Below, piece after piece: positions 22,241-41,805 of a stretch of DNA of 64,000 nt (its first letter is position 1; each line of letters opens with the position of its first letter). A program made the position numbers and the translations under genes. The notes beneath the pieces are model-generated. The model was not told where the DNA came from. It was given only the letters and a program-made list of their open reading frames with translations, and ran no database searches. The stretch is from Streptomyces sp. NBC_00178 (GTDB lineage Bacteria > Actinomycetota > Actinomycetes > Streptomycetales > Streptomycetaceae): positions 2,914,001-2,978,000 of the forward strand of contig NZ_CP108143.1 in assembly GCF_036206005.1 (NCBI RefSeq), written 5' to 3'.

Positions 22241-24475
22241 GTGCCCCGGTTCAGTGTCATCGTGCCCGCGTACCGGGTCCAGGCGTACCTGCACGCGTGT
22301 CTCGACTCCGTGCTGGACCAGTCCTTCAAGGACTACGAGATCATCGTGGTCGACGACTGCTCACCGGACGCCTGCGGCCCGATCGCCGACGAGTACGCCG
22401 TCCGCGACCCCCGCGTCACCGTCGTGCACCTGCCGCACAACGCCGGACTCGGGCCGGCCCGCAACGCCGGGGTCGCCCGGGCCACCGGGGACTACCTCCT
22501 CTTCCTCGACGGCGACGACACCTTCGCCCCCGAGGCGCTCCAGGCCATCGCCGACCGGCTGGGGGCCACCGGCGGCCCCGACGTCCTGGTCTACGACTAC
22601 GCCCGCACCCACTGGTCCGGCGAGAGCGTGCGGAACACCTTCGCCGAACACCTCGCCGAGACCGGCCCGCCGTCCTTCCGCCTCGCGGACCGCCCGGAGC
22701 TGCTCAAGGTCCTGATGGTCGTCTGGAACAAGGCGTACCGGCGCGAGTTCGTCGAGGCCGAGGGCTTCACCTTCCCGCCGGGCTACTACGAGGACACCCC
22801 GTGGACCTACCCGGTGCTCATGGCGGCCGGGTCGATCGCCGTCCTGGACACCGTCTGCGTCGGCTACCGGCAGAGGCGCCGGGGCAACATCCTCTCCACC
22901 ACCACCCCCCGGCACTTCGACGTGTTCGACCAGTACGACCGCGTCTTCGCCTTCATCGACTCCCGGCCCGCGCTCGCGAGCTGGCGCCCGGTGATATTCC
23001 GCAGGATGCTCGACCACTTCTCGACGCTCTTCACCTCCCGGGGGCGTCTCCCGCGCGGCACCCGGGGGGAGTTCTTCCGCCGGGCCCGTGCCCACTGCCG
23101 CCGCTACCGCACCCCCGGCGCCCCGGTGCCGCGCCGCGCCCGCCTGCGGCACGCCCTGTTCCGGCTCGGCGCCCACCGCACCTACCGGGCGCTCTGGACC
23201 GCGCAGCGGCTGCGCATCCGGCTCGGGCGCGCCGGGTCGACGGTGCGCAGGGCCGCCCGCGGGGCCGCCCTGCAGCTCCACTACCGCGTGCAGCTGCGCC
23301 TCCCCGTCAGGGCGGGGGACGCGGTGTTCGCGGCGTACTGGCACCGGGGCTACACGTGCAGCCCCGCGGCCCTGGAGGCCACGGCCCGGGCACTCGTGCC
23401 GGGGATCCGGACCTCCTGGATCTGCCGGCCCGAGGACGCCGGCACGGTTCCCGAGGCGACCCGGGTGCTGCACCCGGGCACGGCCGCCTACTGGACCGCC
23501 CTGGCCCGGTCGAAGTACCTCGTCAACAACGTCAACTTCGACCGCAGGCTGGTGAAGAGGCGCGGGCAGGTGCTGCTGCAGACCCATCACGGCACGCCCC
23601 TGAAGACCATGGGCACCGACCTCGTGCACCGTCCCGCGGCCGCCGGGTCCATGGACTTCGAGCAGTTGCTGCGCAACGTCGACAAGTGGGACTTCTCCCT
23701 GTCGGCCAACCAGCACTCCACGCTCGTGTGGGAGCGCACCTATCCGTCCGGCTACACCACGCTGGAGTACGGCAGCCCCCGCAACGACGTCTTCCACCGC
23801 GCGGCCCCCGACCAGGCCGCCCGGCTGCGCGAGCGGCTCGGCGTCCCCCCGGGCAGCACGGCCCTGCTGTACGCGCCGACCCACCGCGACTACCGGCGCG
23901 AGCAGCGGCACACCCTGGACCTGGAACAGCTCGTCCGGGTCCTGGGCCCGCACTTCGTGATCCTGGCCCGCTCCCACTACCTGGACGCGACGGCCAGGGC
24001 GACCGCCGGGCACACCCGGCACCCGCGGATCATCGACGTCAGCGCCCACCCCTCCGTGGAGGAGCTCTGCCTCGCCTCCGACGGGCTGATCACGGACTAC
24101 TCGTCGCTGATGTTCGACTACGTCAACCTGGACCGCCCGGTGGTCCTGCACCTGGAGGACGCGCAGGCCTACGAGGCGGCGCGGGGGACGTACTTCGATC
24201 CGGCGGCCTTCCCGCCCGGGGCGGTGGCCCGGGACCAGGAGGAGCTGCACGAGATCTTCGCCACGGACCACTGGCGCGGCCCGCGCTCCGCCCAGCGCCG
24301 GGCGGCCTTCCGGGCCCGGTTCTGTCCGTACGACGACGGGCACGCCGCCGAGCGCGTGGTGCGCCGGGTCTTCCTCGGGGACACCTCCGGGCTGCCGGTC
24401 CCCGTGCCCCTGACGGGCCGGGGGCCGACGGGGGTGCCCCGCCAGGTGCCCGTGCGGGAGTACACCAACGGCTGA
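22241..24475 (+). CDS. GT2 glycosyltransferase / CDP-glycerol-type glycerophosphotransferase fusion (744 aa)
   Basis: I take GTG 22241 as the start, since the GT2 fold begins at residue 3 (FSVIVPAY); no good ribosome binding site is visible. The GT2 domain (about 3-230) is intact, with VVDDCSPD and LFLDGDD. A helical linker follows, then a TagF-type polymerase domain (about 375-735) carrying QTHHGTPLKTMG, GSPRNDVF, YAPTHRDY, the RSHYL histidine and TDYSSLMFDY. Enzymes of this type join glycerol-phosphate or ribitol-phosphate units (or analogues) into wall teichoic-acid-like chains at the inner face of the membrane. It is the first gene of the polymer locus and convergent with the GT4 gene. 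Confidence 0.87.
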   Translation: MPRFSVIVPAYRVQAYLHACLDSVLDQSFKDYEIIVVDDCSPDACGPIADEYAVRDPRVTVVHLPHNAGLGPARNAGVARATGDYLLFLDGDDTFAPEALQAIADRLGATGGPDVLVYDYARTHWSGESVRNTFAEHLAETGPPSFRLADRPELLKVLMVVWNKAYRREFVEAEGFTFPPGYYEDTPWTYPVLMAAGSIAVLDTVCVGYRQRRRGNILSTTTPRHFDVFDQYDRVFAFIDSRPALASWRPVIFRRMLDHFSTLFTSRGRLPRGTRGEFFRRARAHCRRYRTPGAPVPRRARLRHALFRLGAHRTYRALWTAQRLRIRLGRAGSTVRRAARGAALQLHYRVQLRLPVRAGDAVFAAYWHRGYTCSPAALEATARALVPGIRTSWICRPEDAGTVPEATRVLHPGTAAYWTALARSKYLVNNVNFDRRLVKRRGQVLLQTHHGTPLKTMGTDLVHRPAAAGSMDFEQLLRNVDKWDFSLSANQHSTLVWERTYPSGYTTLEYGSPRNDVFHRAAPDQAARLRERLGVPPGSTALLYAPTHRDYRREQRHTLDLEQLVRVLGPHFVILARSHYLDATARATAGHTRHPRIIDVSAHPSVEELCLASDGLITDYSSLMFDYVNLDRPVVLHLEDAQAYEAARGTYFDPAAFPPGAVARDQEELHEIFATDHWRGPRSAQRRAAFRARFCPYDDGHAAERVVRRVFLGDTSGLPVPVPLTGRGPTGVPRQVPVREYTNG

Positions 24476-24553
24476 GGCGGCGGGGGCGCGGCGGCTCACC
24501 GCGCCCGGTGGCCTACGGGACGTACGCCCCGCCCGGCCGGACGGTTCCGGTGG

Positions 24554-24571
24554 CCCCCGCCCCGGCGGGGG
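24554..24571. terminator. Short GC hairpin between convergent glycopolymer genes
   Basis: CCCCCGC (24554-24560) pairs with GCGGGGG (24565-24571) around a 4-nt loop, lying just outside the stop codon of the GT4 gene and 78 nt after the stop at 24475. The stem is short and no U run follows, so confidence is limited. Confidence 0.45.
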
Positions 24572-25726
24572 TCAGCGCTCCAGGAACGCGAACAGTTCCT
24601 CCCAGCGGCACATGATCTCCGCCTCGGAGAACCGCTGGACGTTGATCCGCGCACGGTCCCCCATGGCGTCCCGCATGCGGGGGTTGCCGGTGAGCCGCAG
24701 CAGCTGGTCGGCGAGCGCCCCGATGTCCCCGGCCGGCGCGAGCAGACCGTCCTCGCCGTCCCGGACGATCTCGCGGACGCCCGGGGCGCAGTCGAAGGCC
24801 GCGCACGGCAGCCCGCTCGCCATCGCCTCCATCAGGGCCAGGGGGAAGCCCTCGCCGCGCGAGGACTGGACGAAGACGGAGGAGTCCGCGAGGGACGCCG
24901 GGACGTCGTCGGTGCGTCCGCGCCAGCCGACCGAGCCGTCCAGTCCCAGGGCGGTGCACTGCTCCTTGAGCGCCTCCTCGTCCTCGCCCGTCCCGTGGAT
25001 GTCCAGCCGCCACTGAGGGCGCTGCGGGGCCACCAGCGCCCAGGTGTCCAGGAGCATGTCGATGCCCTTCTGGTCCGTGAGCCTGCCGATGCTCGCCACC
25101 GACTTCTCCCGGCGCGGCGAGGGCACCTCGGGCAGGGCCGCCAGGGCGTTGGGCATGAAGCCCACGTTGTTCATCCCGTCGCCCGCCCAGCTGTCGGCGT
25201 CCTGCGCCGTGAGGACGAGCCAGCGGTCGAGCGCCGTGTAGTGGTTCCTGATCCAGCGGTAGCGGTGGCTCGCCCGTGAGTAGTCGTACGACTCGTGGCT
25301 CATCCCGATGACGCGCAGGCCCGACGTGTCCGCCTCGCCGACCCACTCCATCGCCCACACCTGGCTGACGATCACCACCCCGCCGGGCCGGGCCCCCCGG
25401 AAGATCTCGGAGAGCCGGCCGACGGCACGCCGCTTCTCCGCCACGCGGGCGGCCTCGGCGCGCCGGGCGGCGATCCGGAAGCGGTCCCGCACCCCCTGGG
25501 GGGCCCAGGGGGTCGGCGGGTGCGCCGGGTACAGGGCGGTGACGGGGTGACCGTGCGCCTCGGGCAGGGCCATCTTCCGCTCCGAGGCGTGCACGCCGAC
25601 GACGTGCACCCGGTGGCCCGCCTCCTGGAAGAGCTGGGCCATGCGGTGCGTCCAGCCGGTCACACCGCCGAGTTCGTCGGTGCTGTTGGCGACGACGAAG
25701 ACGTCGCGTTCACGGCTGCCGCTCAT
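24572..25726 (-). CDS. GT4-family glycosyltransferase
   Basis: A 384-residue GT-B protein starting at ATG 25726, overlapping the preceding gene's stop by one base (TGATG), so translation is coupled. The N-terminal half has NSTDELGGVTGWTHRM and the C-terminal half the GT4 hallmark E-x7-E region (GEGFPLALMEAMASGLP), together with the donor-site GRLTDQKG. Such retaining enzymes add hexoses from nucleotide sugars. In this operon it could glycosylate the polymer or its linkage unit. It is the last gene of a three-gene operon (32018 to 24572). Confidence 0.9.
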   Translation of the reverse strand: MSGSRERDVFVVANSTDELGGVTGWTHRMAQLFQEAGHRVHVVGVHASERKMALPEAHGHPVTALYPAHPPTPWAPQGVRDRFRIAARRAEAARVAEKRRAVGRLSEIFRGARPGGVVIVSQVWAMEWVGEADTSGLRVIGMSHESYDYSRASHRYRWIRNHYTALDRWLVLTAQDADSWAGDGMNNVGFMPNALAALPEVPSPRREKSVASIGRLTDQKGIDMLLDTWALVAPQRPQWRLDIHGTGEDEEALKEQCTALGLDGSVGWRGRTDDVPASLADSSVFVQSSRGEGFPLALMEAMASGLPCAAFDCAPGVREIVRDGEDGLLAPAGDIGALADQLLRLTGNPRMRDAMGDRARINVQRFSEAEIMCRWEELFAFLER

Positions 25727-28569
25727 CAGCGGTCCTCCCCGGTACGGATGGTGCGGGACGGGGCGAGGTGCCGGGCGAAGACGGTGTCGACGACCGTCCG
25801 GGCCGCGTCCCCCCGGTCGTAGGCACCGAACTCCGTGGCGAAGGCGGCACGCCGGTCCTGGAAACCGGTGTCCGCGCTCTTCAGGCGGGCCAGCACGGTG
25901 AACAGCTCCTCCTCGGTCGCCGCCACCGGCCCCGGCGCCTTCTCCCGCAGGTCGAAGTAGCTGCCCCGCTCGGCGGCGTACGCGTCGAGGTCGGGGGCGA
26001 ACAGGACGATCGGGCGGTCCAGGAGCGCGAAGTCGAACATGATCGACGAGTAGTCCGTGACCAGTACGTCGGTGAGCGCGAGGAGTTCGCTGACGTCGTG
26101 GTGGTCCGAGACGTCCACGACCGACCCGGGCGGGCAGGGCGGCAGGCTCGCCGCCTCCAGGTAGTGGGCCCGCACCAGCAGCGTGTACGTGTCGCCGAAG
26201 CGCTCGGCGAAGCGCGCCGCGTCCAGCAGGAGCCGCTGCCGCCTGCGCCTTCCGGGGCCGCCCCGGAAGGTCGGGGCGTACAGCACGACCTTGCGGTGGT
26301 CGGGGAGGCCCAGCCGGGCCGCGAGCTCCGGGCGCGGCAGCCGCCCCTCGGCCTCGGTCCGGGCCCGCGCCGCGAGGAGGACGTCGTTGCGCGGGTATCC
26401 CGTGCGCAGCAGGGTCTCCTCGGGCAGCCGGTAGGCGCGCGCCAGGGTGCGCTCGTCGTGCGGGGAGCGGACAAGGAAGTGGTCGAACCGGCCCACCGCC
26501 TGCTGGAGGCGCTCGCGCTGCGGGGCGTTCTGCATCCGCACCCGCGTCTCGTCGAAACCCATCCGCTTGTACGCCGACCCGTGCCAGGTCTGCAGGTAGG
26601 TGGTGCCCCGGGGCTTGTCGAGGTTCTGCGGGAACCCCTGGTTGTCGACCCAGTACTCCGCCCTGGCCAGGGCCCACAGATAGCGCCAGGACCAGCGGCG
26701 CACCAGCCGGGCGTCCGCCGGAAAGCCCTCGGGGGTGTCGGCGTACGCCCACACGCAGCGCAGCCGCAGTCCGCGGGCCCGCACCTCCTCGTGGACGGCG
26801 CGGGGGCTGTCGCCGTAGCAACTGCCCATGTGGCTCTCGAACACCACGCTGCCCCTGCGCACGGGAAGCCGCAGGAACCAGGAGCGGTACACGGAGACCT
26901 TGAGGCCCCGGGCGTGCAGCCGGTCCCTGCGCCTGCCGAGCGCCCTCACCAGGAGCTTGACCCGGCGCGCGGGGCGGAAGTGCGTGGCGTAGTGGACCAG
27001 CCGTCGCGCCGTGCGGGCGGGCCGGCCGCGGGACTCCAGGCGGAGCGCCAGATGGTCCCGGGTGGTGACGTAGGGCTGCCAGGTGTCGCCGGTCAGCCCG
27101 CCGAGCCGGGGCCGGGCCGGTGACCGGTCGTCCGGGCCGACGAGGTCGTGGGCGGCGAAGAGGTCGCTGACCGAGCGGGTCCGGCCGTCCTCCACGACCA
27201 TCCGGGCGTCCCAGACCGTGTCGCGCGGACCCAGCGGGCGGACGGCGCCGGTGAGGTCGAAGCGGGCCGACCAGTCGATGCCGGTGGCGTCGGCCCTGAG
27301 GTCGTCCACCGGGACACGGAAGGCGCGGGAGCCGTCCCGTACCCGGAACTCCAGGTGGGCGCCCAGGGTTCCGTCCGGGTCGGGGCCGGTGTGGCCGGGC
27401 AGGACGATCCGCCCCCGCAGCTGGACCGCCCGCCCGTCCGCCTGGTAGCGGGTGAGCCGGTTCATGAGCTTGAGCTCGCCGAACACGCGGTACTGGTGGC
27501 CGAGTCCGGTGACGTCGAGCGCGGGGTCGGTCCCGTCGTCCCAGTGCACGCGCCCGTCCTCGCCCGTCCGGAGGGGCGAGACCACGGTGCCCCGCCGGCG
27601 CAGGGCGTACGCCGCGCCCAGCACCCCGTCCGCGTCACCGTGCTGGAGCAGTCGTACGCCGACGCGTTCGACGGGCGGCAGGGTCAGGAGGGCCGCGTCC
27701 GGGACGCAGTCCGGCAGCACGCGGGAGGCCGTGGCGGCGATCCCGGCCCGCTCGGCGGCTGGCCGCTGGGGGAAGGTCCGCACGAGGGGGACCAACCGGT
27801 CCCGCAGGAAGGCGCGGTCCCGCTCCTCGCGCAGCTCCGACAGCCCCTGCGCCACCAGGACATGGCACACCCGCCGGTGTGCCTCCACGAGCCCGGCGAG
27901 GTCCCGTCCGTCGTCGGGCAGGGCCCTGCCCGACACGATCCGGCGGCGTACGAGTGCGATGCGGCCCACCACGGACGCGGCCAGCGGCCCGAAGAGGACG
28001 CCGCTGCGGGTGAGGTCCTCGGAGTAGCGCAGGGCGTGCCGCTCCAGTGCGGCGCGGCGCACGCAGAACCCGGACACCAGGGCGTCGTGCACGGCCAGTT
28101 CGGGTGCGTCGGTGAACCGGCGGACGGTCCTGGAGTCCGCGAACAGCTGCTGCTGCCAGGAGGGTTCGCGCTCCTTGGTCCCGTCCTCCGTGAGCCGGCT
28201 CCACCGCCCGGCGACCAGGTCGGCTCCGGTGCCCGTCCCGGCCTCCAGGAGGTTGCGGCAGGCGTGCTGCTGGAGGCACTCGCCGGCGTCGAGGACGAGG
28301 ACGTACGTGCCCCGCGCCCCGTCCAGGCCGGCGTTGCGCAGGACCGCGACGGAGTCCGACGCGGCCTCCACGACGCGGACGCGGTCGGGGGACCGCCCGG
28401 CAAGTGACCCGGCCGCCGTCCGCACCTCGTCGGACGCGGCGGGGGCGAGGACCACGACGACCTCGACGGCACGCAGGCTCTGGCCCAGCACGGACTCCAC
28501 GGATCCGCGCAGCGCCTCCTGTCCGCACGCGGCGGCGGTGACGACGCAGCTGAAGTCGGGAGCGCTCAT
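25726..28569 (-). CDS. CDP-glycerol-type glycerophosphotransferase with degenerate GT2-like N-terminus (947 aa)
   Basis: It starts at ATG 28569, overlapping the preceding stop by 4 nt (ATGA). The first ~220 residues follow the GT2 fold but have lost its signatures: VVVLAPAASD stands where VVDDGS is expected and VLDAGE where the D-x-D appears, so donor binding is doubtful. A beta-rich middle region follows. The C-terminal TagF-type domain (about 590-935) is intact, with QTWHGSAYKRMG, GYPRNDVL, YAPTFRGG, RAHYL and TDYSSIMFDF. It should transfer an alditol- or glycerol-phosphate unit to a growing wall polymer. It is the middle gene of the operon with the 1150-residue fusion and the GT4 enzyme. 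Confidence 0.85.
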   Translation of the reverse strand: MSAPDFSCVVTAAACGQEALRGSVESVLGQSLRAVEVVVVLAPAASDEVRTAAGSLAGRSPDRVRVVEAASDSVAVLRNAGLDGARGTYVLVLDAGECLQQHACRNLLEAGTGTGADLVAGRWSRLTEDGTKEREPSWQQQLFADSRTVRRFTDAPELAVHDALVSGFCVRRAALERHALRYSEDLTRSGVLFGPLAASVVGRIALVRRRIVSGRALPDDGRDLAGLVEAHRRVCHVLVAQGLSELREERDRAFLRDRLVPLVRTFPQRPAAERAGIAATASRVLPDCVPDAALLTLPPVERVGVRLLQHGDADGVLGAAYALRRRGTVVSPLRTGEDGRVHWDDGTDPALDVTGLGHQYRVFGELKLMNRLTRYQADGRAVQLRGRIVLPGHTGPDPDGTLGAHLEFRVRDGSRAFRVPVDDLRADATGIDWSARFDLTGAVRPLGPRDTVWDARMVVEDGRTRSVSDLFAAHDLVGPDDRSPARPRLGGLTGDTWQPYVTTRDHLALRLESRGRPARTARRLVHYATHFRPARRVKLLVRALGRRRDRLHARGLKVSVYRSWFLRLPVRRGSVVFESHMGSCYGDSPRAVHEEVRARGLRLRCVWAYADTPEGFPADARLVRRWSWRYLWALARAEYWVDNQGFPQNLDKPRGTTYLQTWHGSAYKRMGFDETRVRMQNAPQRERLQQAVGRFDHFLVRSPHDERTLARAYRLPEETLLRTGYPRNDVLLAARARTEAEGRLPRPELAARLGLPDHRKVVLYAPTFRGGPGRRRRQRLLLDAARFAERFGDTYTLLVRAHYLEAASLPPCPPGSVVDVSDHHDVSELLALTDVLVTDYSSIMFDFALLDRPIVLFAPDLDAYAAERGSYFDLREKAPGPVAATEEELFTVLARLKSADTGFQDRRAAFATEFGAYDRGDAARTVVDTVFARHLAPSRTIRTGEDR

Positions 28570-31500
28570 GCCCGGTCCCCCTTCAGCATGCGGTCCACGA
28601 CCCGTGCCGACGCCGTCCCGTCGTCGAGGTCGCAGAACGACGCACGGAAGTTCGCGTACGCCTCGCGGTGGCCGGCCCCCGCCGCGTCCGGGTCGCGCAG
28701 CGCCTCGACGACATCGGCCGACGCGGTGAGCAGGGGACCGGGCGCCAGCTTCTCGAAGTCGAGGCAGAAGCCGCGCAGGGTGTCGCGGTAGTGCTCCAGG
28801 TCGTAGGTGTGGAAGAACATCGGGCGCCCCGTCTGCGCGAAGTCGAACATCAGGGACGAGTAGTCCGTGACCAGCACGTCGCTGACCAGCATCAGTTCCG
28901 CCACGTCGGGGTGGCGCGAGACGTCCCGCACGAAGTCGTCCTCGGGGATGCTGCCGCCGACCAGGTAGTGGCGGCGCACCAGCAGGACGTGATCGTCACC
29001 GAGGGCCTTCCGGGCGTGCGCCAGGTCCAGCTGGAGATCCAGTCCGTACAGCCCGCTCCGCCTGGGCCGGTCCTCGCGCCAGGTCGGGGCGTACAGGACG
29101 ACCCGCTTGCCGTGCGGCACACCGAGCGACTGACGGACGGCGGCGGCCGTCTTCGCCCGGTCGGCGGCGTACAGCAGGTCGTTGCGGGGGTAGCCGCACT
29201 CCATCACCTCGCCGGTGTGCCCGAACGCGCGGCGCAGTACCGGGGTGGAGAAGCGGTTGGGCGAGACGAGGACGCTCCACTGCGCGGCCCTCCGGGGCAT
29301 GGACTCCATGTACGCGGTGTCCGCGAACGCCGTGCCCGCGAGGTCGCGGCCGATGCGCTTGAGCGGGGTGCCGTGCCAGGTCTGGACGACGAACTGGCCC
29401 TCCGCCCGCTCGAACCACTCCGGCAGGTGGGTGTTGGTCACGATCCACCTGCTGCGGGCCAGCGCCTCGTGCCACTCGGCGCTGTGCAGGGCGACCGCGC
29501 GGACCCCGGCCGGCACGGCGGCCTGCTGGTCCCGCACCACCCAGAGGTGCTCGACGCCGGTGTCACGGCGGGCCAGTTCCTCCTGGACGGCGCGCGGCGA
29601 ATCCGAGAACTGGCGCCCGTCGAAACTGGAGTACAGGACGGTGTCCAGCAGTCCCGCACCGCGCGCTGCCGCGTACCGGGCGCGCAGCCGCCGCTGCCCG
29701 AACGCGCCCCGGTCGCGCACCGGCAGGGCACTGCCCGACGACAGGCAGAGCCGGTCGTGGAAGCGCCGCTCCAGGGTGAAGCGGCGGCCGCGCAGGTCGC
29801 GGTGGAGCGGCAGGCCGGCGTGCAGCTGGGGCACCGCCCGCAGCGGCAGGTACCGCTCGGGATCGGTTTCGCCGGGCGCCCGCAGGAAGGGGTACCACCG
29901 GCCCTCGGCCAGCGGCAGCGTGCCGCCGGGGCCCTCGACGGCCGAGGGCGCGACCGCCGTGCGGAAGTCCGCCCCCTCGCGCTCCACGGCGAAGGTGTTC
30001 TCCTCGTGGTGGCCGCTGTGGCGCAGGACCAGCTCCACCGCGCGCTCCGGCACGGCCGGGAAGGTCCCTTCCAGGAGCAGACCGCCGTCCTCGGTCCAGG
30101 ACACGCCCGCGACGACGGGCGGGACGGCCCGGTCGGTGAGGACCAGGTCGCCGGAGGGGTTGGCCGCGGCGTACACCTCGCGGCCGCCGGCCAGGGGGTA
30201 GCGACCCGCCTCCGTCTCCGGGCGGGCGGCGACCGTCAGCCGGCGCGCCCCGCCGACCAGCTGGACGCCCCAGTCCCCGTCGGTGCCGGGAAAGGCGTCC
30301 AGCGGCACGTCCGCGAAGAACCCGCGGCCGTCCTCGCCCACGCCCGGCGCCAGGGGGAACTCCCGGGTCTGCTTCGTGCGCCACTCCTGGATGCGCAGGG
30401 CCGTCGCCGTGTCCCGGCCCAGCACGCGCACCGCGATGCGGACCGCGTCGCCGGCCTCCGTCGCCCGGTGCCCTGCGAGCACGGCGTCGATCCGCTCGGC
30501 GCGCAGCTCCAGCTTGTTGCCGGACAGCAGGGGGACGACCCGCGTGCGTTCGTCGACGTACCGCACGGCGGGCGCCGCCGGATTGCCGAGCAGGCGCATG
30601 GGGCCCCGGCGCGGCCGGCCGGCGCCGACGACGACGGACTCCAGCTTCCACAGGGTGCGGGCCCCGCGGGCCGTGCGCCTGCCCGCCAGGCGCCGCGGGT
30701 CGACGACGGTCTCGAAGCCGGAGCGCTCGTAGCCGTGCAGCGAGCGGCCGGAGCCGGCCGCCGCCTCCTCCGTCGTGCTCCGGCGCAGCCGCAGCGGGAT
30801 CACCCTGCGTCCCGACCTCAGCCAGCCGGTCCCCGCCGACCTGCCGGGGGCGTTGCGCACGTACGCGTACCCCTTGAGGTGCAGCAGGCCCTCCCGCCAC
30901 ACGGCCTCGGTGAGGTGCGCGTGCACGGGGAGGTCCGCCCCGGACAGGGCGGTGACGCGGCGCGGGAGCGGGGCGTCGATGCCCGGATGGACGGCCCTCG
31001 GCCGCAGGGCGCCCCGGACGTGGAAGGTGTCGCGGTCGGTGCTCTCGTGGGCCAGCAGGGCGAGCAGTTCCGCCGTCCTGCGCTGCCGGATGAGGAGCCA
31101 CTTGACGCGCAGGTGCAGCGGGAGCGCGTCGAGGACCGCCGGGTCGACCGTGTCGGCGAAGGCGTTCGCGTGGGTGAGGAAGGCTTCGTGGTAGCTCTCG
31201 TCGCCGTCCGGCAGGGCCTCGATGAACAGCCACAGGTCGCCGGAGAGCGCGTGCTCGTCGTAGCGCCGCTTCGCCTCGGCCATGCCCCGTCCGGCGAGGA
31301 ACCGGCTGACGGTGGAGACCGCGGTGACCCGGTCGCGGATGCCCCGGGCGACGGCGCGGCGGGTGGTGATCGAGCCGTCCCGGTCCCGCCAGTGGTAGAC
31401 CGGCGCGGCGACGACGTCGACGCTCCGGGCCAGGAAGTACGCCGGGAGGACGACGGCGATGTCCTCGTAGAGGACGCCCGTGGGGAAGGCGAAGGCGTGC

Positions 31501-32018: not shown

Positions 32019-32050
32019 GGCGCTGCGCACGATCCTTCCGGGAGGACGGG

Positions 32051-32079
32051 CGGACGTCCTCTGCGACGGACGTCCTCTG
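32051..32079. repeat. 13-bp direct repeat in the operon leader
   Basis: CGGACGTCCTCTG occurs at 32051-32063 and again at 32067-32079, separated by 3 bp, in the region upstream of the 1150-residue transferase gene and downstream of the hairpin at 32087. Each copy contains the palindrome GGACGTCC, which might be a regulator site; this is only a suggestion. Confidence 0.5.
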
Positions 32080-32086
32080 TATGGAA

Positions 32087-32117
32087 CGAGCCCCGTGCCG
32101 GTGAGGCACGGGGCTCG
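32087..32117 (-). terminator. Hairpin after the TylF-like methyltransferase gene
   Basis: Arms CGAGCCCCGTGCC (32087-32099) and its exact complement (32105-32117) form a 13-bp stem with a 5-nt loop. It lies 18 nt past the methyltransferase stop and separates the upstream methyltransferase operon from the downstream transferase operon. Confidence 0.8.
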
Positions 32118-32134
32118 CAACGGGGCCTGCGCGT

Positions 32135-33016
32135 TCAGGGTTTGACGGCGATCCGGCCCTCGTCCATGCGCAGCAGGAGCAGCTGCTCGCCGGTCTCCTC
32201 CAGGAACTCGTCCACGGCCTGGCGCGATCCCTGCCAGTAGCCGTAGTCGTCGATCAGCAGGACTCCGCCGCTCACCAGCCGGCCGTACAGGTGCTTCAGC
32301 TCGTGCTTGGTGGAGGCGTACCAGTCGGTGTCGAGCCGCAGGACGGAGATCCGCTCGGGCGCCTGCTCGGGGACGGTGTCCTCGACCTTGCCCTGCACGT
32401 AGTGGATGCGGTCCTTCGGGTAGGGCACCTGTTCGAAGCCGGCCTGTACGTCCTCCAGTGAGGCCACCGCCCAGATGGGCCGGTCCTTGCCCTGGGCGTC
32501 CAGCAGCTCCTGGGCGGGCCTGCCGTCCCGCCGCAGGTCCTCCGCGGTGGGCGGGGTCATGCCCTCGTAGGTGTCGAAGAGGTAGAGGTCGCGGCCGGTG
32601 TCGCCCAGCGACAGCAGCGTCTTCGCGCAGGCCTGCATGGAACCGCCGCGCCACACTCCGCACTCGACGATGTCGCCGGGGATGCCGTGCTTGACGACGT
32701 GCCGCGTCGCGAGGACGAAGGCGTTCAGCCGCTCCGGCGAGGTCATCGTGTACGGCTTGACCGCGCGGATGATGTCCTTCGCCTCGTCGTCGTAGTCCGC
32801 CGGGAACTGCGGCTTCTTCACGGCGGCCTTGACGGGGGCCTTCGCCGGGGCCGGCTTCGCCGCGGCGGGGGCCGCGGGGGCGGACCGGGGAGCGGGCACG
32901 GTCGCACGCCTGAGCTGGTATCCGGTGAGTTGCTGAAGGACGCCGTTGACGGCGTTGCGCCAAGCCATGGGGCGGGACAGTACGCGCGTTTTGCGGCTCA
33001 TGTCATCTTTCGTCAA
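32135..33016 (-). CDS. TylF/MycF-type O-methyltransferase
   Basis: A 293-residue protein. ATG 33016 overlaps the preceding stop by 4 nt; an in-frame ATG at 33001 is an alternative. After a basic helix and an Ala/Pro/Lys-rich linker (about 42-68), the TylF-family core shows VECGVWRGGS (SAM site), FDTYEGM, LRLDTDWYAST and IDDYGYWQG, the last two containing the acidic residues that bind magnesium in this family. TylF and MycF methylate sugar hydroxyls on macrolides. Here, within a wall-polymer locus, the natural guess is O-methylation of a polymer sugar (inference). It is coupled to another methyltransferase gene upstream. Confidence 0.88.
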   Translation of the reverse strand: MTKDDMSRKTRVLSRPMAWRNAVNGVLQQLTGYQLRRATVPAPRSAPAAPAAAKPAPAKAPVKAAVKKPQFPADYDDEAKDIIRAVKPYTMTSPERLNAFVLATRHVVKHGIPGDIVECGVWRGGSMQACAKTLLSLGDTGRDLYLFDTYEGMTPPTAEDLRRDGRPAQELLDAQGKDRPIWAVASLEDVQAGFEQVPYPKDRIHYVQGKVEDTVPEQAPERISVLRLDTDWYASTKHELKHLYGRLVSGGVLLIDDYGYWQGSRQAVDEFLEETGEQLLLLRMDEGRIAVKP

Positions 33017-33723
33017 CCTGTGGTTGATGGGACCGCACGCGTGTCCGGCCGCCCGCAGCGCTCACGGCCGTCGAGCGGGCGGGGCAGCGGGACCCGGTCC
33101 ACCCCGCCGACCCGGTTCGCCCACCACACCGCCGCCTCCCGCACGGCGAACATGGTGAGTGCGCGGTAGCGCTGCGGCCTGCGGAAGACGCCGACGGAGT
33201 CGCCCCAGTAGGCCGCCTTCGCGTCGATGGACCCGTAGTCGTGCCAGATCCCCCTGGTGGGCGGGAAGTCCGTGTAGGCCTCGCGGAGTTCGAGGCCGGA
33301 GTACGCCGCCATCGCCCGGAAGCCGTCCGGGTAGTAGCGCCAGCAGTCCTGGGCGTCGTGGGCGTGGCCGCGGGACGGCGCGGTGATGAAGGCGTGGCCC
33401 CCGGGCTTGAGGACCCGGGCGATCTCCATCATGGACACCCAGAAGAACGGGATGTGCTCGAACGCCTGCCCGGAGAGGACGACGTCGGCGCTGCGGGAGC
33501 GGGCGGGGATGCGGTAGGGGCGCTTCATGACCGCGTCCACGTTGGGCCCGTCGAGGACGTCGACCCCGAAGTAGTCGATGTCGTGGTCCGCGAGCAGCCC
33601 CCGGTGGGTGCGGGACTGCTTCCCCGAGATCCGCGAGCCGAGGTCCACGACACGGTGCCTGCGGTCCCTGGGCAGGTACTCCTCGACGCAGATCCGCATC
33701 TGCTCGTAGGCGGACCGGTGCAT
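33013..33723 (-). CDS. Class I SAM-dependent methyltransferase
   Basis: A 236-residue protein from ATG 33723, with GGGAGAGG close before it. The SAM-binding motif I is VVDLGSRISG, an acidic strand-2 end is FGVDV, and the post-motif LKPGGHAFITAPS is typical of the Methyltransf_11/25 group. A histidine-rich segment (RGHAHDAQDCWRYYPDG) follows. Its stop overlaps the start of the TylF-like gene by 4 nt, so the two methyltransferases are cotranslated. The acceptor is unknown; polymer sugar, polyol or terminal phosphate methylation are all possible. Confidence 0.85.
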   Translation of the reverse strand: MHRSAYEQMRICVEEYLPRDRRHRVVDLGSRISGKQSRTHRGLLADHDIDYFGVDVLDGPNVDAVMKRPYRIPARSRSADVVLSGQAFEHIPFFWVSMMEIARVLKPGGHAFITAPSRGHAHDAQDCWRYYPDGFRAMAAYSGLELREAYTDFPPTRGIWHDYGSIDAKAAYWGDSVGVFRRPQRYRALTMFAVREAAVWWANRVGGVDRVPLPRPLDGRERCGRPDTRAVPSTTG

Positions 33724-33800
33724 GTGCCTCTCCCAACGTTGCCGTGTGCGCGCGCTGTTGAACACAACGACGGCGCGGTGCGCAGGACACCCCCGGAGAT

Positions 33801-35816: not shown

Positions 35817-35916
35817 GGCAGCCGAGCGTAGTGCGGCCCGCGCCGCCCGCCCTACGGATCTTCACCCGTTCGGGTCAACGGCGTGACCCCCGGCGCTCCC
35901 CCGGGTTGAGCCGTAC

Positions 35917-38900
35917 ATGAAGCCACTCCTCAGCGTCGTCGTCCCCGTGCACAACGTCGAGGACTACCTGCGGGAGTGCCTCGCCTCGCTGGCCGGCCAG
36001 TCCCTGAAGGACATCGAGGTGGTGCTGGTCGACGACGGCTCGACGGACGGGAGCCGCCGCATCGCGGAGGACTTCGCGTCACGGGACGCTCGCTTCCGCT
36101 GCGTCCACCAGCCCAACGCCGGGCTGAGCGCCGCCCGCAACACGGGGGTCTCCCACACCGACCCGGGGGTGCCGTACCTGGCGTTCGCCGACAGCGACGA
36201 CGTACTCGTCCACGACGCGTACGAACGGATGCTGGCGTCCCTGGAGTCGACGGGATCGGACCTGGTCACCGGCAACGTGTGGCGGCTGGACGAGCAGGGC
36301 AGGCAGCAGGCCTGGCAGTACCGCTGGCTGACCGGCGACCGCCCGCGCACCCACATCACCCGCGACCCGCGGCTGCTGGCCGACCGGGTCGCGTGGAACA
36401 AGGTGTTCCGGCGCACGTTCTGGGACCGGCACGCCTTCTCCTTCCCGGTCGGCCGGCTCTACGAGGACACGCCGGTGATGATCCCCGCGCACTACCTCGC
36501 CGACGCGGTGGACGTCCTGCACGAACACGTCTACCTCTGGCGGGTGCGGGAGGGCTCGATCACCCGGCGGCGCACCGACGTCCGGGGCGTCCGGGACCGC
36601 ATCGCGGCCTGCGAGCGGGTCAGCGCGTTCCTCGCGGACCGCGGTCCCGGGCAGCGGCTGCGCTACGACGCCTCGTGCCTGCGCGACGACTTCGTGTACT
36701 TCCTGGAAGGGCTGCCGATGGGCGGCCCCGAATACCGCGCGGCCTTCATGGAGGACGCGGGCGCCTTCCTCGACCGCGCGGGCGACGCGGCCCTGACCGG
36801 TCTGCCCGCCGAGGCCCGGATCAGGTGGCGGCTGGTCCGGGAGCGCCGGCTCGGCGAGCTGCTGGCCGTCCTGGCCTTCGAACGCGCCGACGGCAGCGGC
36901 ACGTTCACCGTCACGGGACCGCCGGGGAGGCGGCGCGCCGCCCATCCCGGGGTGGCGGGTGCCGGCAACGTGTCGGCGCGGCTCGGCAGCGGCGATCTGC
37001 CCGTGGTGGCCCGGCTGACGGAGTCCTCCTGGGGCGCCGACGGCCGGCTGCGGCTGCGCGGCTACGCCTACGTCCGCAACCTCCCGGCGGACACGGCCCT
37101 GCGGTCGCTGAAGGCGGGGCTGGTGAAGGAGGCGGGCGGCAGACGGCTGCGGGCCGTGCCCGTCCGCACGGTGCGGACCGACCTGGCCACGGCGGACTCC
37201 GGCCAGTCGCTGCACCGCTACGACCACGCGGGCTTCGAGATGGTCCTGGATCCGGGGCGGCTGGGGACCGGCACCTGGCAGGTGGGCGTGGTCCTCGCCG
37301 GGCACGGCACCGTGCGCCGGGCCGCCCTGCGCGCCACGGAGGCGGCGGCCGCGCAGCCGCTGGTCCACGACCTGGGCGACGGGCTGCGCGCCGTGCTCGG
37401 CTACCGGGACGGCCGACTGGAACTGGCCGTCGAGCGGCTGCCGGCACTGGCCCTCGCCCATGACGGCGGAGCGGAGACCGCGGAACTGACCGGCCGGCTG
37501 TACGGCGGCGCGCGCCCGGACACCCTCGTGCTCAGCCGTGACGGTTCGGCGGGGCACGCCTGCCCGGTACGGATCACGGACGGCGGCCCCGGCGGCCCGG
37601 AGGAGGCGCACTTCCGCGTCCGCGTGCCGCTCGCGGCACTCGCGGCCGAGGCCGGACCGCCCCCCGTCGCCTCCCCCGGGGAGACCCCGCCGCCCGGTGC
37701 GCGGTGGCGGGCCGTGCTCCTGACCGACGGGGGCGGCCAGGTGCCCCTCGCCGCCGCGCCGGACATGGCGCCGCCCCTCTTCGCCGACGCGGCGGGCCAC
37801 CTGGTGGCGGAGGTGACCGGCGAACCCCTCGTGACCGGCGCCTCGGCCGCGCCGGACGGCGGACTGCGGATCGAAGGGCTCGGGACCGGAGCCCTGGTGC
37901 TGCGTCACACCACCCTCGGCGAGACGGTGACCGTCCCCGCCGAGGAGCGGGACGGACGCTTCCGCGCCGTACTCGCCGAGCCGCCCCGCGAAGGGGACTG
38001 GGAGCTGTCCCTCGACGGCCGGCCCGTCCGCGTGACCGGCCTGCTCGCCGCCCGGCTGCCGGTCGCCGCCGGCGGTGACCGCTTCCGGCTCGGCCGGCGG
38101 CACGGCGACCGGCTGACCGTGCGCTGCGCGCCGCCGCTCGGGGACGCGGAGCGCAGCGCCCACCGCCGCGCCCGGCTGCGCTCGGCGCACTACCCGGCGC
38201 AGCGCGGACTGCCCCTGAGGGACGCGGTGCTCTACGCGGGAAACGGCGCGCCGCGCGCCGTCCACGCCGAGATCGTGCGCCGGGGCGCGGACGCGGAACA
38301 CCTCTGGGTCACCGACGGATCGGCGGGCGACGCCGCCCGTGTACCGGCCACCGCAGTCCCGGTCGTGGCGCACGGCGCCGCGTGGCACGAGGCGCTGGCC
38401 CGCGCGCGCCACGTCGTCGCGGCGGGCCCCCTGCCCGCGTGGTTCGAGCGCCGCCCGGGCCAGACGGTCGTGCAGACCTGGCACGGCGCCCCGCTCGGCC
38501 GGTTCGGCCTGGACCTCGCGGGCACCCTGTACGCCGACCACCAGCACCTGGACACGCTGGCCGCCGGCGCGGCCCAGTGGTCGGTCCTGGTCTCCCCGAG
38601 CAGCTTCGCGACCCCCCACCTGCGCCGGGCACTGGCCTACGGGGGCGAGGTCCTGGAGGCGGGCTCCCCGGCCGGTGACCTGCTGTGCGCACCGGACCGG
38701 GACGGAACGGCCGAGCGGGTGCGCGGGGCGCTGGGCATCCCGGAGGGGCACCGCGTGGTGCTCCACGCCCCGACGTACCGGGACCACCTCGCGCACGCCC
38801 CGCGCAGCCTCCCCGCCGGCTCGCCGCCGCTGTACCGCTGGGACCCCGCACTCGATCACGCGGAACTGGCGCGGTCGCTCGACGGGCGCACCACGGTGCT

Positions 38901-39336
38901 GGTCCGCAGGCATCCCCGGGTCACGGGGAGCGTGCCGGCACACCCCGCGCTGCGGGACGTGTCCGGGCATCCGGACGTCGCCGAGCTGCTGCTGATCGCC
39001 GACGTGCTGGTCACCGACTACGCGGGGCTGGCCTTCGACTTCGCGCACACCGGCCGCCCGATGCTCTTCCACACCTACGACCTGGAGCACTACCGGGACA
39101 CCGTGCGCGGCTTCTGCCTCGACTTCGAGACGCGCGCGCCCGGGCCCCTCCTCGTCAGCACCCAGGAGGTGGCCCAGGCGCTGCGGGCCACCCCGGCGTC
39201 GGCGGCCCTGCACGCGGACGCCTACGAGAGCTTCCGGCGGGACTTCTGCGGTCCGGCCGACGGCGGTGCCGCCCGCCGCGTCGTGGACCGGCTCCTCGAC
39301 GGGGCGCCGGAGGACTCGCGGCCGCTCAGCCCTTGA
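35917..39336 (+). CDS. GT2 / degenerate CDP-glycerol-type transferase fusion (1139 aa)
   Basis: It starts at ATG 35917. The architecture is the same as the 1150-residue protein: an intact GT2 domain (VLVDDGSTDGS, FADSDD; about 1-230), a helical/beta middle, and a TagF-type domain (about 800-1120) that aligns along its whole length. Several family signatures of the last domain have changed: HGAPLGR for HGTPLKR, GSPAGD for GYPRND, RRHPR for RRHYL and TDYAGLAFDF for TDYSSLMFDF. The framework is well kept (HTYDLEHYRDT is shared). The GT2 half is probably active, while the polymerase half may be inactive or have a new role. It converges on and overlaps the TetR gene by 11 bp. Confidence 0.85.
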   Translation: MKPLLSVVVPVHNVEDYLRECLASLAGQSLKDIEVVLVDDGSTDGSRRIAEDFASRDARFRCVHQPNAGLSAARNTGVSHTDPGVPYLAFADSDDVLVHDAYERMLASLESTGSDLVTGNVWRLDEQGRQQAWQYRWLTGDRPRTHITRDPRLLADRVAWNKVFRRTFWDRHAFSFPVGRLYEDTPVMIPAHYLADAVDVLHEHVYLWRVREGSITRRRTDVRGVRDRIAACERVSAFLADRGPGQRLRYDASCLRDDFVYFLEGLPMGGPEYRAAFMEDAGAFLDRAGDAALTGLPAEARIRWRLVRERRLGELLAVLAFERADGSGTFTVTGPPGRRRAAHPGVAGAGNVSARLGSGDLPVVARLTESSWGADGRLRLRGYAYVRNLPADTALRSLKAGLVKEAGGRRLRAVPVRTVRTDLATADSGQSLHRYDHAGFEMVLDPGRLGTGTWQVGVVLAGHGTVRRAALRATEAAAAQPLVHDLGDGLRAVLGYRDGRLELAVERLPALALAHDGGAETAELTGRLYGGARPDTLVLSRDGSAGHACPVRITDGGPGGPEEAHFRVRVPLAALAAEAGPPPVASPGETPPPGARWRAVLLTDGGGQVPLAAAPDMAPPLFADAAGHLVAEVTGEPLVTGASAAPDGGLRIEGLGTGALVLRHTTLGETVTVPAEERDGRFRAVLAEPPREGDWELSLDGRPVRVTGLLAARLPVAAGGDRFRLGRRHGDRLTVRCAPPLGDAERSAHRRARLRSAHYPAQRGLPLRDAVLYAGNGAPRAVHAEIVRRGADAEHLWVTDGSAGDAARVPATAVPVVAHGAAWHEALARARHVVAAGPLPAWFERRPGQTVVQTWHGAPLGRFGLDLAGTLYADHQHLDTLAAGAAQWSVLVSPSSFATPHLRRALAYGGEVLEAGSPAGDLLCAPDRDGTAERVRGALGIPEGHRVVLHAPTYRDHLAHAPRSLPAGSPPLYRWDPALDHAELARSLDGRTTVLVRRHPRVTGSVPAHPALRDVSGHPDVAELLLIADVLVTDYAGLAFDFAHTGRPMLFHTYDLEHYRDTVRGFCLDFETRAPGPLLVSTQEVAQALRATPASAALHADAYESFRRDFCGPADGGAARRVVDRLLDGAPEDSRPLSP

Positions 39337-39931
39337 GCGCGCGGACCGCCGAGGCGGCCAGATCGTCCAGGTAGCCCTTCGGGAGGCTGCCGCGGACGAC
39401 GGCCAGACGCCAGTAGAGCGGCCCGACGATGAGGTCGAGCGCCCGGTCCGGATCGCTGCCCTCGGGAAGCTCGCCGCGTGCGACCGCCTCGCGCACGACC
39501 ACGGCGGCCACGCCCTGCTGCGGGTCGAGCAGGGCGGCCTTGATGGCGTCGGAGATCTCCGGGCTGCGGGCCGCCTCGACCAGCAGATCCGGGATCACCT
39601 GCGAGGCGAGGGGGTGCCTCAGCGCGTACGAGGCCAGTTCGAGCACGGCCCGGACGTCCCCGTACAGCGACCCGGTGGCGGGCGCCGGCATGCCCTGTGC
39701 CGCGACGGCCGCCACCAGGTCCAGGACGAGGTGCAGCTTGGACTTCCAGCGCCGGTAGACGGCGGTCTTGCCCACCCCCGCGCGGCGGGCGATGCCCTCG
39801 ATCGACATCCGGGCGAATCCCACGGCGGCCAGCTCCTCGAAGACGGCGACACGGATCGCGTCGGTCACGTCCTCCCGCAGCACCGCGGCGCCCGCCGGGG
39901 TGCGGCGCCCGGTTCGCCGTTCGGTGTTCAT
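39326..39931 (-). CDS. TetR-family transcriptional regulator
   Basis: A 201-residue protein from ATG 39931. The N-terminal helix-turn-helix (about 18-65) reads FARMSIEGIARRAGVGKTAVYRRWKSK in segments typical of TetR, and the C-terminal two thirds is the all-helical ligand-binding domain. It is divergent from the TagG-like permease gene with 139 bp between the starts and overlaps the 1139-residue transferase gene at its 3' end, so it is likely to control export and perhaps its own gene. The ligand is unknown. Confidence 0.92.
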   Translation of the reverse strand: MNTERRTGRRTPAGAAVLREDVTDAIRVAVFEELAAVGFARMSIEGIARRAGVGKTAVYRRWKSKLHLVLDLVAAVAAQGMPAPATGSLYGDVRAVLELASYALRHPLASQVIPDLLVEAARSPEISDAIKAALLDPQQGVAAVVVREAVARGELPEGSDPDRALDLIVGPLYWRLAVVRGSLPKGYLDDLAASAVRALKG

Positions 39932-39947
39932 CTGCCGAATGATAGAC

Positions 39948-39993
39948 CGTAACGACGAAACGGTTGCGTTGCGACGCACAAACGTCCTACTGT
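39948..39993 (+). promoter_or_regulatory. Putative tagG-like promoter with overlapping inverted repeat
   Basis: A -35-like TTGCGT (39964-39969) and a -10-like TACTGT (39988-39993) are separated by 18 bp, upstream of the permease start at 40071. An imperfect inverted repeat, CGTAAC (39948-39953) and GTTGCG (39963-39968), five of six bases symmetric, overlaps the -35 and is a candidate TetR operator. This is read by eye only. Confidence 0.35.
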
Positions 39994-40070
39994 CAGCGTC
40001 ACGACGATACGGTCCCGTCCCCACCGCCCGGATCGTCCGCCCCTCCCCAAGCCCCCCGTCGAAAGCGAAC

Positions 40071-41012
40071 GTGGTGAGCCAGACAGCAGCACCGCCGGCC
40101 CCGGTGGACACCGCATCTCCCACCCTCCTCCCCGTGTACGAGCCCGGCGAGCTGGCCGCGCTCGCCGCCCGGCACGGGCTCACCGTCAGCGGGGCCCGGC
40201 CGACCCTCGGGGAGTACATCCGGCAGCTCTGGGGGCGCAGGCACTTCATCACCGCCTTCGCCACCGCCAAGCTGACCGCCCAGTACAGCCAGGCGAAGCT
40301 CGGCCAGATCTGGCAGATCATGACGCCGCTGCTCAACGCGACGGTCTACTACTTCATCTTCGGCGTCCTGATGAACACCAAGCACGGAGTCCCCGACTTC
40401 GTGCCCTTCCTCGTCACCGGCGTCTTCATCTGGACCTTCACCTCCAGCTCGATCACGGCCGGCACCCGGGCCATCAGCGGCAACACCGGCCTCGTGCGGG
40501 CGCTGCACTTCCCCCGGGCGTCGCTGCCGATCGCGCTGGCCATCCAGCAACTGCAGCAACTGCTCTTCTCTCTGGGCGCGCTGTTCCTGATCCTGCTCGT
40601 GTTCGGCCAGTACCCGCAGCCCTCCTGGCTGCTGGCGGTCCCCGCACTCGCCCTCCAGGCGGTGTTCAACACCGGCGTCTCCATGGTCATGGCGCGGCTC
40701 GCCGCCAGGACACCAGACATCGCGCAGCTCACCCCCTTCATCCTGCGCACCTGGATGTACGCCTCCGGCGTCATGTGGAGCCTCGACACGCTGCTTTCCG
40801 GGGACCGCGTGCCCCGGCTCGTCCTGCTCGCGCTCGAATGCAACCCGGCCGCCGTCTACATCGACCTGATGCGCTACGCCCTGATCGACAGCTTCACCGG
40901 CGCGCAGCTGCCCCCGCACGTGTGGGCCGTCGCCGCGGGCTGGGCGCTCGTCGCCGGCGTCGGCGGCTTCGTCTACTTCTGGAAGGCCGAGGAGAGGTAC
41001 GGACGTGGCTGA
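40071..41012 (+). CDS. TagG-type polysaccharide/teichoic acid ABC exporter, membrane subunit
   Basis: A 313-residue ABC-2 type permease from GTG 40071 (the next codon is also GTG). A 50-residue cytoplasmic tail precedes six hydrophobic helices (first about 85-105, last about 290-305). The amphipathic stretch LGEYIRQLWGRRHFI and the AKLTAQYSQAKLGQIWQI coupling helix are typical of TagG/Wzm proteins, which move lipid-linked polymers from the inner to the outer face of the membrane. The ATPase gene overlaps its 3' end by 8 bp. It lies at the end of the polymer locus and probably exports its product. Confidence 0.92.
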   Translation: MVSQTAAPPAPVDTASPTLLPVYEPGELAALAARHGLTVSGARPTLGEYIRQLWGRRHFITAFATAKLTAQYSQAKLGQIWQIMTPLLNATVYYFIFGVLMNTKHGVPDFVPFLVTGVFIWTFTSSSITAGTRAISGNTGLVRALHFPRASLPIALAIQQLQQLLFSLGALFLILLVFGQYPQPSWLLAVPALALQAVFNTGVSMVMARLAARTPDIAQLTPFILRTWMYASGVMWSLDTLLSGDRVPRLVLLALECNPAAVYIDLMRYALIDSFTGAQLPPHVWAVAAGWALVAGVGGFVYFWKAEERYGRG

Positions 41013-41805
41013 CACCGCCGACACCCGTGTGCCCACCGTCGTCGTCGACGACGTCCACATCACCTACACCGTGAACGGCGCCCGCACAGGCCGCGGCAGC
41101 GCCACCTCCGCGCTGAACCGGATCGTGTCGCGCAAGCAGCCCCGGGGAGCACGCGAGGTGCACGCCGTGAAGGGCGTCAGCTTCGCCGCGTACAAGGGCG
41201 AGGCGATCGGGCTGATCGGTTCCAACGGTTCCGGGAAGTCGACATTGCTCAAGGCCATCGCGGGTCTCCTGCCGCCGTCGAAGGGCCGGGTCCACACCCA
41301 GGGCCAGCCCTCGCTGCTCGGTGTGAACGCCGCCCTGATGAGCGACCTGACCGGGGAGCGCAACGTCGTGCTCGGCGGACTGGCCATGGGGATGACGCGC
41401 GAACAGATCCGCGAGCGCTACCAGTCCATCGTCGACTTCTCCGGCATCAACGAGAAGGGCGACTTCATCACCCTGCCGATGCGCACCTACTCCTCCGGCA
41501 TGGGCGCCCGGCTGCGCTTCTCCATCGCCGCCGCCAAGAGCCACGACGTCCTGCTGATCGACGAGGCCCTGTCCACCGGCGACGCGAAGTTCCAGCGGCG
41601 CAGCAGGGACCGCATCATGGAGCTCCGCGAGGAGGCCGGCACGGTGTTCCTGGTCAGCCACAGCAACAGGTCGATCACCGACACCTGCGACCGCGCGATC
41701 TGGCTGGAGGCGGGCACCCTCCGGATGGACGGCCCGGCCGAGGACGTGGTCGCCGCCTACGAGGAGTTCACCGGCCCGGCGAAGCCGAAGAGGCCGAAGA
41801 AGTAA
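41005..41805 (+). CDS. TagH-type polysaccharide/teichoic acid ABC exporter, ATPase subunit
   Basis: A 266-residue ABC ATPase starting at GTG 41005 with GGAGAGG upstream. Motifs are Walker A GSNGSGKST (about 72-80), signature YSSGMGARL, Walker B VLLIDEALSTGD and the switch histidine VSHSNRSI. The N-terminal insertion (about 18-50, basic) before the HAVKGVSF strand is a feature of the TagH/Wzt group. There is no C-terminal substrate-recognition domain of the kind seen in some Wzt proteins. Together with the permease it should export the polymer made by the cluster. A perfect 21-bp hairpin follows. Confidence 0.92.
   Translation: MADTADTRVPTVVVDDVHITYTVNGARTGRGSATSALNRIVSRKQPRGAREVHAVKGVSFAAYKGEAIGLIGSNGSGKSTLLKAIAGLLPPSKGRVHTQGQPSLLGVNAALMSDLTGERNVVLGGLAMGMTREQIRERYQSIVDFSGINEKGDFITLPMRTYSSGMGARLRFSIAAAKSHDVLLIDEALSTGDAKFQRRSRDRIMELREEAGTVFLVSHSNRSITDTCDRAIWLEAGTLRMDGPAEDVVAAYEEFTGPAKPKRPKK

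Follow-up and report, generated by a model that had tools for sequence, protein, structure and literature searches.

Paralogue-specific loss of predicted active sites among the GT2-TagF fusion proteins of a Streptomyces wall teichoic acid locus

Few of the enzymes that assemble wall teichoic acid (WTA) in Streptomyces have been assigned individually. We analysed a stretch of 64,000 nucleotides from Streptomyces sp. NBC_00178 (assembly GCF_036206005.1, contig NZ_CP108143.1, positions 2,914,001 to 2,978,000; hereafter the window, to which coordinates refer unless another source is named), and in particular the gene cluster at 22241-41805, which encodes five proteins (A to E) that join an N-terminal family 2 glycosyltransferase (GT2) domain to a TagF-type polymerase domain. 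By its gene content the cluster is a WTA locus of known kind and mostly of ordinary type. What was unexpected is that the two active sites of these fusions appear to be lost separately, each in particular paralogues. The explanation that best fits the whole, to which we give a probability of roughly 0.55, is that this is the main WTA assembly locus of Streptomyces and that its duplicated fusions share polymerisation and side-chain decoration.

The catalytic residues of TagF, His444 and His584, are named in PMC5974469 and are the residues changed in the S. epidermidis TagF structures PDB 3l7j and 3l7m. They align with the HGTPLK and RxHY motifs of the window proteins, and both histidines are present in all five. 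The GT2 site was scored by the DD, DxD and ED motifs of the GT-A fold, which are present in A, C and E and not in B or D; the further TagF active-site motifs are kept in A to D, while E reads PAGD for PRND and TDYAG for TDYSS. The initial annotation had described four clear GT2 fusions and one degenerate one, B, and had taken their number to suggest that each protein adds both sugar and polyol-phosphate. All five do carry an N-terminal match to PF00535 (A 129, B 37, C 116, D 56 and E 123 bits) and B is indeed degenerate, but D has lost its GT2 motifs too, so that B is not the sole such case. By motif only A and C keep both sites, since the GT2 motifs are missing from B and D and the TagF site is altered in E, whose GT2 motifs are present; the idea of five bifunctional enzymes survives for those two alone. 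The number of fusions is in any case no proof of dual transfer, because the same GT2 and TagF layout occurs in the ordinary TagF of S. epidermidis.

We scored the same sites in 259 TagF proteins (two of 261 were dropped beforehand, having fewer than 300 aligned residues), 4 of which have no assessable GT2 front; the two genome sets overlap, at least two genomes being counted twice. Paralogue groups were named from the topology of a FastTree tree alone, P1 being the group of A, and P2, P3 and P4 lying outside the window. By motif, the GT2 site is lost and TagF kept in every member of P2 (44/44) and of P4 (10/10); B (n=16) and D (n=12) likewise keep TagF throughout, with GT2 lost in 15 of 15 and 9 of 10 assessable copies, respectively. 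The opposite state is seen in P3, where His444 is replaced in all 44 proteins (36 Gln, 7 Arg, 1 Asp) and GT2 is kept in 38. E (n=5) keeps GT2 in 4 of 4 assessable copies and has altered PRND and TDYSS motifs in each of the 5; further E copies from a scan of 61 genomes also lack PRND, and one has TWRG instead of TWHG. Both sites are kept in C (TagF 18/18, GT2 17/18), in the sister groups Bw (6 proteins), C2 (3) and B15 (2), and in one ungrouped protein. In P1 (n=98) GT2 is kept in 97, and a TagF histidine is lost in 20, with Q, R, A, E, D or N in its place. Across the 259 proteins the two sites thus seem to have been lost in a paralogue-specific way, a pattern that is new to us and of which no report turned up in literature searches, subscription papers being mostly outside them. 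Relatives with intact sites lie beside the degenerate groups in the tree (Bw next to B, one from genome G004 near D and one from G010 near P4), which makes at least four separate GT2 losses likely.

The rates at which the two domains diverge agree with the motif states of GT2. For each group we took the ratio of GT2 to TagF distance over the same species pairs, each group having its own comparison set and E being represented by 4 species only. This ratio was 1.36 for P2, 2.06 for P4, 1.57 for B and 1.49 for D, all of which lose GT2 motifs, and 0.85 for P1, 0.74 for Bw, 1.04 for C and 0.75 for E, all of which keep them. GT2 domains that lack their motifs thus diverge faster and are under less constraint.

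What the front modules might transfer was approached through predicted structures of B and C. In the model of B the first 120 residues form a GT-A domain of good confidence, followed by a helical and a beta part. Foldseek matched this front to TarS, RmlT and TarP (E 2.7e-15 to about 1e-9), and VIA-align gave Z 18 for TarP over 265-277 residues at 3.8-4.4 A, about 17 for TarS and 16.7 for K4 chondroitin polymerase. The model of C matches TagF, TarL, RmlT and TarS, with a long beta-rich region between its two enzymes. At the low-to-moderate confidence of these models, both fronts fit the TarS/RmlT/TarP fold of GT-A, helical and beta domains, and B and C look like fusions of a decorator to a polymerase, an arrangement new to us; TarS, RmlT and TarP themselves stand alone, unfused to TagF. 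TarP and RmlT glycosylate ribitol-phosphate chains, and ribitol-phosphate ligands appear in the titles of the matched PDB entries. TarS acts on the same chains (PMC13274773). Since the closest folds are those of ribitol-phosphate side-chain decorators, we prefer, with modest confidence, to place the sugars on side chains rather than in the main chain.

Genes for other steps were found elsewhere in the genome. The initial annotation had noted that no gene for cytidine diphosphate (CDP)-polyol synthesis or for a linkage-unit enzyme lies inside the locus and that precursors must come from elsewhere, and both points hold. Two genes of the genome match the IspD family strongly; the second, at 2.46 Mb and 0.48 Mb away from the locus, is fused to a short-chain dehydrogenase in the manner of TarI-TarJ and scores 166.0 bits against NF001183 (D-ribitol-5-phosphate cytidylyltransferase), exactly at the cut-off of 166. 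Its surroundings (an Obg-type GTPase, glycosyltransferases with a TarS linker, a uridine diphosphate-sugar dehydrogenase and a pyruvyltransferase-like protein) recall the TarIJ and utr region of S. griseus (PMC13274773). In S. griseus a TagF is said to occupy the corresponding place beside TarIJ; here a 729-residue protein (L062:16851-19040, minus strand) lies directly beside the fusion and has some motifs that look TagF-like by eye, but its identity as a TagF is unsupported, with no Pfam, NCBIfam or PDB match and an hhalign probability of 3%. The genome also holds two PF00953 enzymes and ten LCP matches. The initial annotation had proposed to look for tagD, tarI and tagO. TagD is not established: the gene at 5.745 Mb (L020:1453-1956, minus strand) scores 65 bits as TagD (cut-off 165.4) and 72 as HldE domain II (cut-off 181.5), and a CTP_transf_like gene at 5.29 Mb was rejected as coaD (193 bits, cut-off 103.3). 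The 5.745 Mb gene adjoins genes for a phosphatidylinositol-phosphate-synthase-like protein and a WcaI-like GT4. The WecG/TagA family gave no match in the genome and was detected in 7 of 14 control genomes; TagA is absent, and in this the linkage-unit genes depart from the canonical tag/tar set.

We propose an assembly scheme in which CDP-ribitol would be supplied by the TarI-TarJ fusion encoded elsewhere, and a polyol-phosphate chain would be built on a lipid carrier by the GT2-TagF proteins. The TarS/RmlT/TarP-like front modules would attach beta-linked sugars to the polyol, and the two methyltransferases would O-methylate those sugars; in S. antibioticus the WTA is a ribitol phosphate bearing beta-glucose, of which a minor fraction is 3-O-methylated (PMC13274773), and the TylF-like enzyme is accordingly a candidate for the O-methylation of a sugar. 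TagGH would then export the chain and LCP enzymes would attach it to peptidoglycan. The set would have arisen by duplication of a bifunctional ancestor, with later loss of one active site in individual paralogues, such that A and C probably perform both steps, B and D polyol-phosphate transfer only, and E mainly glycosyl transfer. Motif states would in this way predict, gene by gene, which paralogue polymerises and which glycosylates, and the split pattern makes such a division of labour testable at the same resolution.

A stronger form of this proposal, which we put forward tentatively and regard as somewhat improbable as it stands, is that Streptomyces WTA is made by split polymerases: neighbouring decorator-polymerase paralogues would have lost opposite sites, chain growth and decoration would require two proteins acting in trans, and reshuffling of half-modules at one site would change the surface polymer between species. 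A precedent for any sharing of the two steps, in the preferred scheme as well, is found in the Gram-negative capsule polymerases Cps1B, Cps12B, Ccs2 and CslB, which have an N-terminal GT-A and a C-terminal TagF-like domain and share catalytic residues with A and C (PMC5974469). Single-domain mutants of Cps1B and Cps7D are inactive, and complementary mixtures of them make polymer at wild-type level (PMC5974469); such mixing looks like a laboratory version of what the paralogue sets appear to be. The capsule enzymes differ in being single bifunctional proteins, whereas the source locus has several paralogues, some with one site lost, and the models of B and C, in which a beta-rich stretch separates the two domains, set these proteins further apart.

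Several observations weigh against sharing of the two steps among the fusions. The GT2 to TagF ratio of P3 is 1.00, with no relaxed evolution of TagF to mirror the GT2 domains of the other groups; the conserved histidine change in P3 should therefore not be called decay, and may reflect altered chemistry rather than a dead domain. Both TagF histidines are kept in all 5 surveyed copies of E. Under simple compensation P1 should lose TagF in genomes that have P2; this expectation is unsupported, histidine loss in P1 and the presence of P2 being unassociated (11/44 versus 9/52, Fisher p=0.45). The structure models are weak (mean predicted local distance difference test scores of 51.7 and 62.7), and the TagF part of B is unreliable. 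The TagD/HldE-like gene falls below both cut-offs, so that the genome has no established CDP-glycerol synthetase. Finally, what the analysis shows directly is gene content, the fixed site, motif states, relative rates of the domains and similarity of fold; all substrates (donors and acceptors alike), the side-chain position of the sugars, the target of methylation, action in trans and attachment to the wall are inferred.

The paralogues might instead set different polyol-phosphate linkages (a first unit, a 1,5-ribitol chain, a branch or a terminal glycerol), with the GT2 fronts of B and D as mere scaffolds, a reading that we consider rather unlikely, although it is compatible with the preferred one. 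The WTA of S. griseus contains 1,5- and 1,3,5-linked ribitol phosphate with terminal glycerol phosphate (PMC13274773), B and D keep all checked TagF motifs, and the front of B retains a GT-A fold without GT2 motifs, all of which would fit; linkage specificity, however, is unreadable from the sequences, and the terminal glycerol meets the same lack of an established CDP-glycerol synthetase.

Slightly less probable again is the view of the initial annotation that the GT2 parts insert sugar in the main chain itself, which would yield a type II WTA, or poly(glycosyl-polyol phosphate). Capsule polymerases of the same layout alternate sugar and hexose-phosphate transfer, the authors of PMC5974469 ask whether homologues make type II WTA, whose enzymes they name as an open question, and A and C keep both the sites that it would need. 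Against this, the fronts of B and C are closest in fold to side-chain decorators, though K4 chondroitin polymerase is also listed, a GT2-like front is present in S. epidermidis TagF as well, and the Streptomyces WTA described in PMC13274773 is ribitol phosphate with side sugars.

Plain decay, in which redundant copies drift to lost function without division of labour, would account for the scattered replacements in P1, unlinked to P2, and for the faster-diverging GT2 fronts of P2, P4, B and D, but is improbable given that the other domain is kept, that both sites are flagged lost in only 6 of the 259 proteins, all of them P3, that 4 of the 44 P3 proteins have N for the first D, as does S. epidermidis TagF, that TagF of P3 is not relaxed, and that the state is constant within groups across many species.

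The gene content of the locus is confirmed. All five TagF domains that the initial annotation had proposed score far above the PF04464 cut-off of 22.1 bits (A 386, B 327, C 350, D 396, E 241), and a genome-wide scan at E<=0.001 placed all five matches of the genome within 22241-41805. Copies per genome range from 0 to 7 among 24 same-genus relatives and the source genome, with at least five in 8 of the 25, so that five is not exceptional for Streptomyces. The GT4 enzyme, both methyltransferases, the TetR regulator and the TagG/TagH pair were each borne out by family matches (Table 1), and the TetR gene is divergent from tagG-tagH, as expected of TagR-TagGH WTA loci. This arrangement is shared with S. 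roseosporus, where TagR represses tagGH and a tagG knockout grows slowly, sporulates poorly and shows plasmolysis, and tagG from B. subtilis restores it (PMC10269677). For this homologous gene, part of the exporter test proposed in the initial annotation thus exists, covering growth, sporulation and plasmolysis rather than wall chemistry. When an operator for TagR was sought between tagR and tagG, a single 10-base imperfect inverted repeat came up, for which we claim no operator function. In S. epidermidis one gene, tagF, serves for poly(glycerol phosphate); its product (3l7i) has the TagF domain, catalytic histidines and GT2-like N-terminus of the locus fusions and is shorter (729 residues). 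A teichulosonic acid (Kdn) locus of the SCO4873-4882 kind would be expected to carry nonulosonic acid genes, and general Pfam scans found no nonulosonic acid synthesis domain among the locus proteins, the only part of the genome where these were sought. No characterised product for the exact gene set turned up in literature searches, again with subscription papers mostly outside them, as the initial annotation had supposed.

The coelicolor-like type of interior is P1-P2-P3 followed by other genes, in place of the GT4-B-C-TylF-methyltransferase-D-E of the source locus. From gene order, P1-P3 are putatively SCO2981-2983 and P4 is putatively SCO2997. The WTA region of S. coelicolor likewise holds WTA glycosyltransferase/TagF genes, SCO2981, 2982, 2983 and 2997 being catalogued as WTA glycosyltransferases (PMC3937824). 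More generally, the locus occupies a fixed site between an ATP-binding cassette (ABC) importer and tagR-tagG-tagH-gdhB, with interior genes that are exchanged from species to species. Of 80 named loci selected solely for encoding A, 78 have the importer permease gene permB immediately upstream of A (the exceptions being L108 and L120). Relatives gave 24 region sets, of which 11 contain permB, A, tagR, tagG, tagH and gdhB in one region, several of the other sets ending at contig ends or lying elsewhere in the chromosome. The interiors seen are A-GT4-B-C-TylF-methyltransferase-D with E beyond (the window type), P1-P2-P3, P1 accompanied by a D-like gene and C, and a lone P1 ahead of tagR-tagG-tagH-gdhB. 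S. silvae, S. halstedii and S. cyaneofuscatus share the window type. The counterparts of A show 92-93% identity to it in Streptomyces sp. SM10 and in S. silvae, and 85% in S. halstedii. TylF homologues (>50% identity over nearly full length) occur in 8 of the 80 named loci, all of window type, at 78-90% identity, and E-like matches above 50% identity in 10 of 61 genomes of the genus. Glycan-bearing WTA serves umbrella toxins as a receptor (PMC13274773), so variation among the polymerase genes at this constant position could influence the range of target species.

Two further observations concern relatives. Genome G021 (and also G002) has, between tagH and gdhB, another B-GT4 pair whose GT2 motifs are intact (L029:15609-19666), so the pair seems to move as a unit. 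Another relative has a distant PF04464 match (G019:C1:7099577-7100680, 110 bits) remote from the locus, within a 1825-residue open frame.

Table 1. Genes of the WTA locus, with window coordinates and the features on which their description is based.
Feature	Coordinates	Strand	Remarks
A (group P1), compact GT2-TagF, 744 residues	22241-24475	+	Both active-site sets intact in source strain
GT4 glycosyltransferase	24572-25726	-	Overlaps stop of B; GT4 and B adjoin in relatives
B, TarS/TarP-like front and TagF	25726-28569	-	GT2 metal/donor motifs lost; TagF histidines kept
C, TarS/RmlT-like GT-A, helical part, beta-rich region and TagF	28566-32018	-	Both active-site sets kept
TylF-like O-methyltransferase	32135-33001	-	PF05711, 150.9 bits
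Class I S-adenosylmethionine methyltransferase	33013-33723	-	PF08241, 33 bits; start assigned from sequence
D, compact GT2-TagF, 671 residues	33801-35816	-	GT2 part short, degenerate; TagF motifs kept
E, GT2 with TarS-linker-like stretch and TagF	35917-39336	+	PRND and TDYSS motifs of TagF altered
TetR regulator, TagR-like	39326-39931	-	PF00440/PF16859; position and size resemble S. roseosporus TagR
tagG-like ABC permease	40071-41012	+	PF01061; NF050109 79.5 bits, under its cut-off
tagH-like ABC ATPase	41005-41805	+	Best families are teichoic acid export ATPases, 183-186 bits; cut-offs 320 and 538

The whole window is Streptomyces DNA and also contains a transfer-messenger RNA gene, prfB, two protein kinase genes, the ABC importer, gdhB (NAD-glutamate dehydrogenase) and SecA, and in it an LpqB-like protein adjoins a sensor kinase and a response regulator. 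The two Ser/Thr kinase genes adjoin one for a 1153-residue protein with FHA and FtsK/SpoIIIE domains (14514-17975). At 56470-56517 a raiA-hairpin RNA (RF03059, 67.8 bits) overlaps the upstream end of the open reading frame for an S30AE ribosome hibernation factor.

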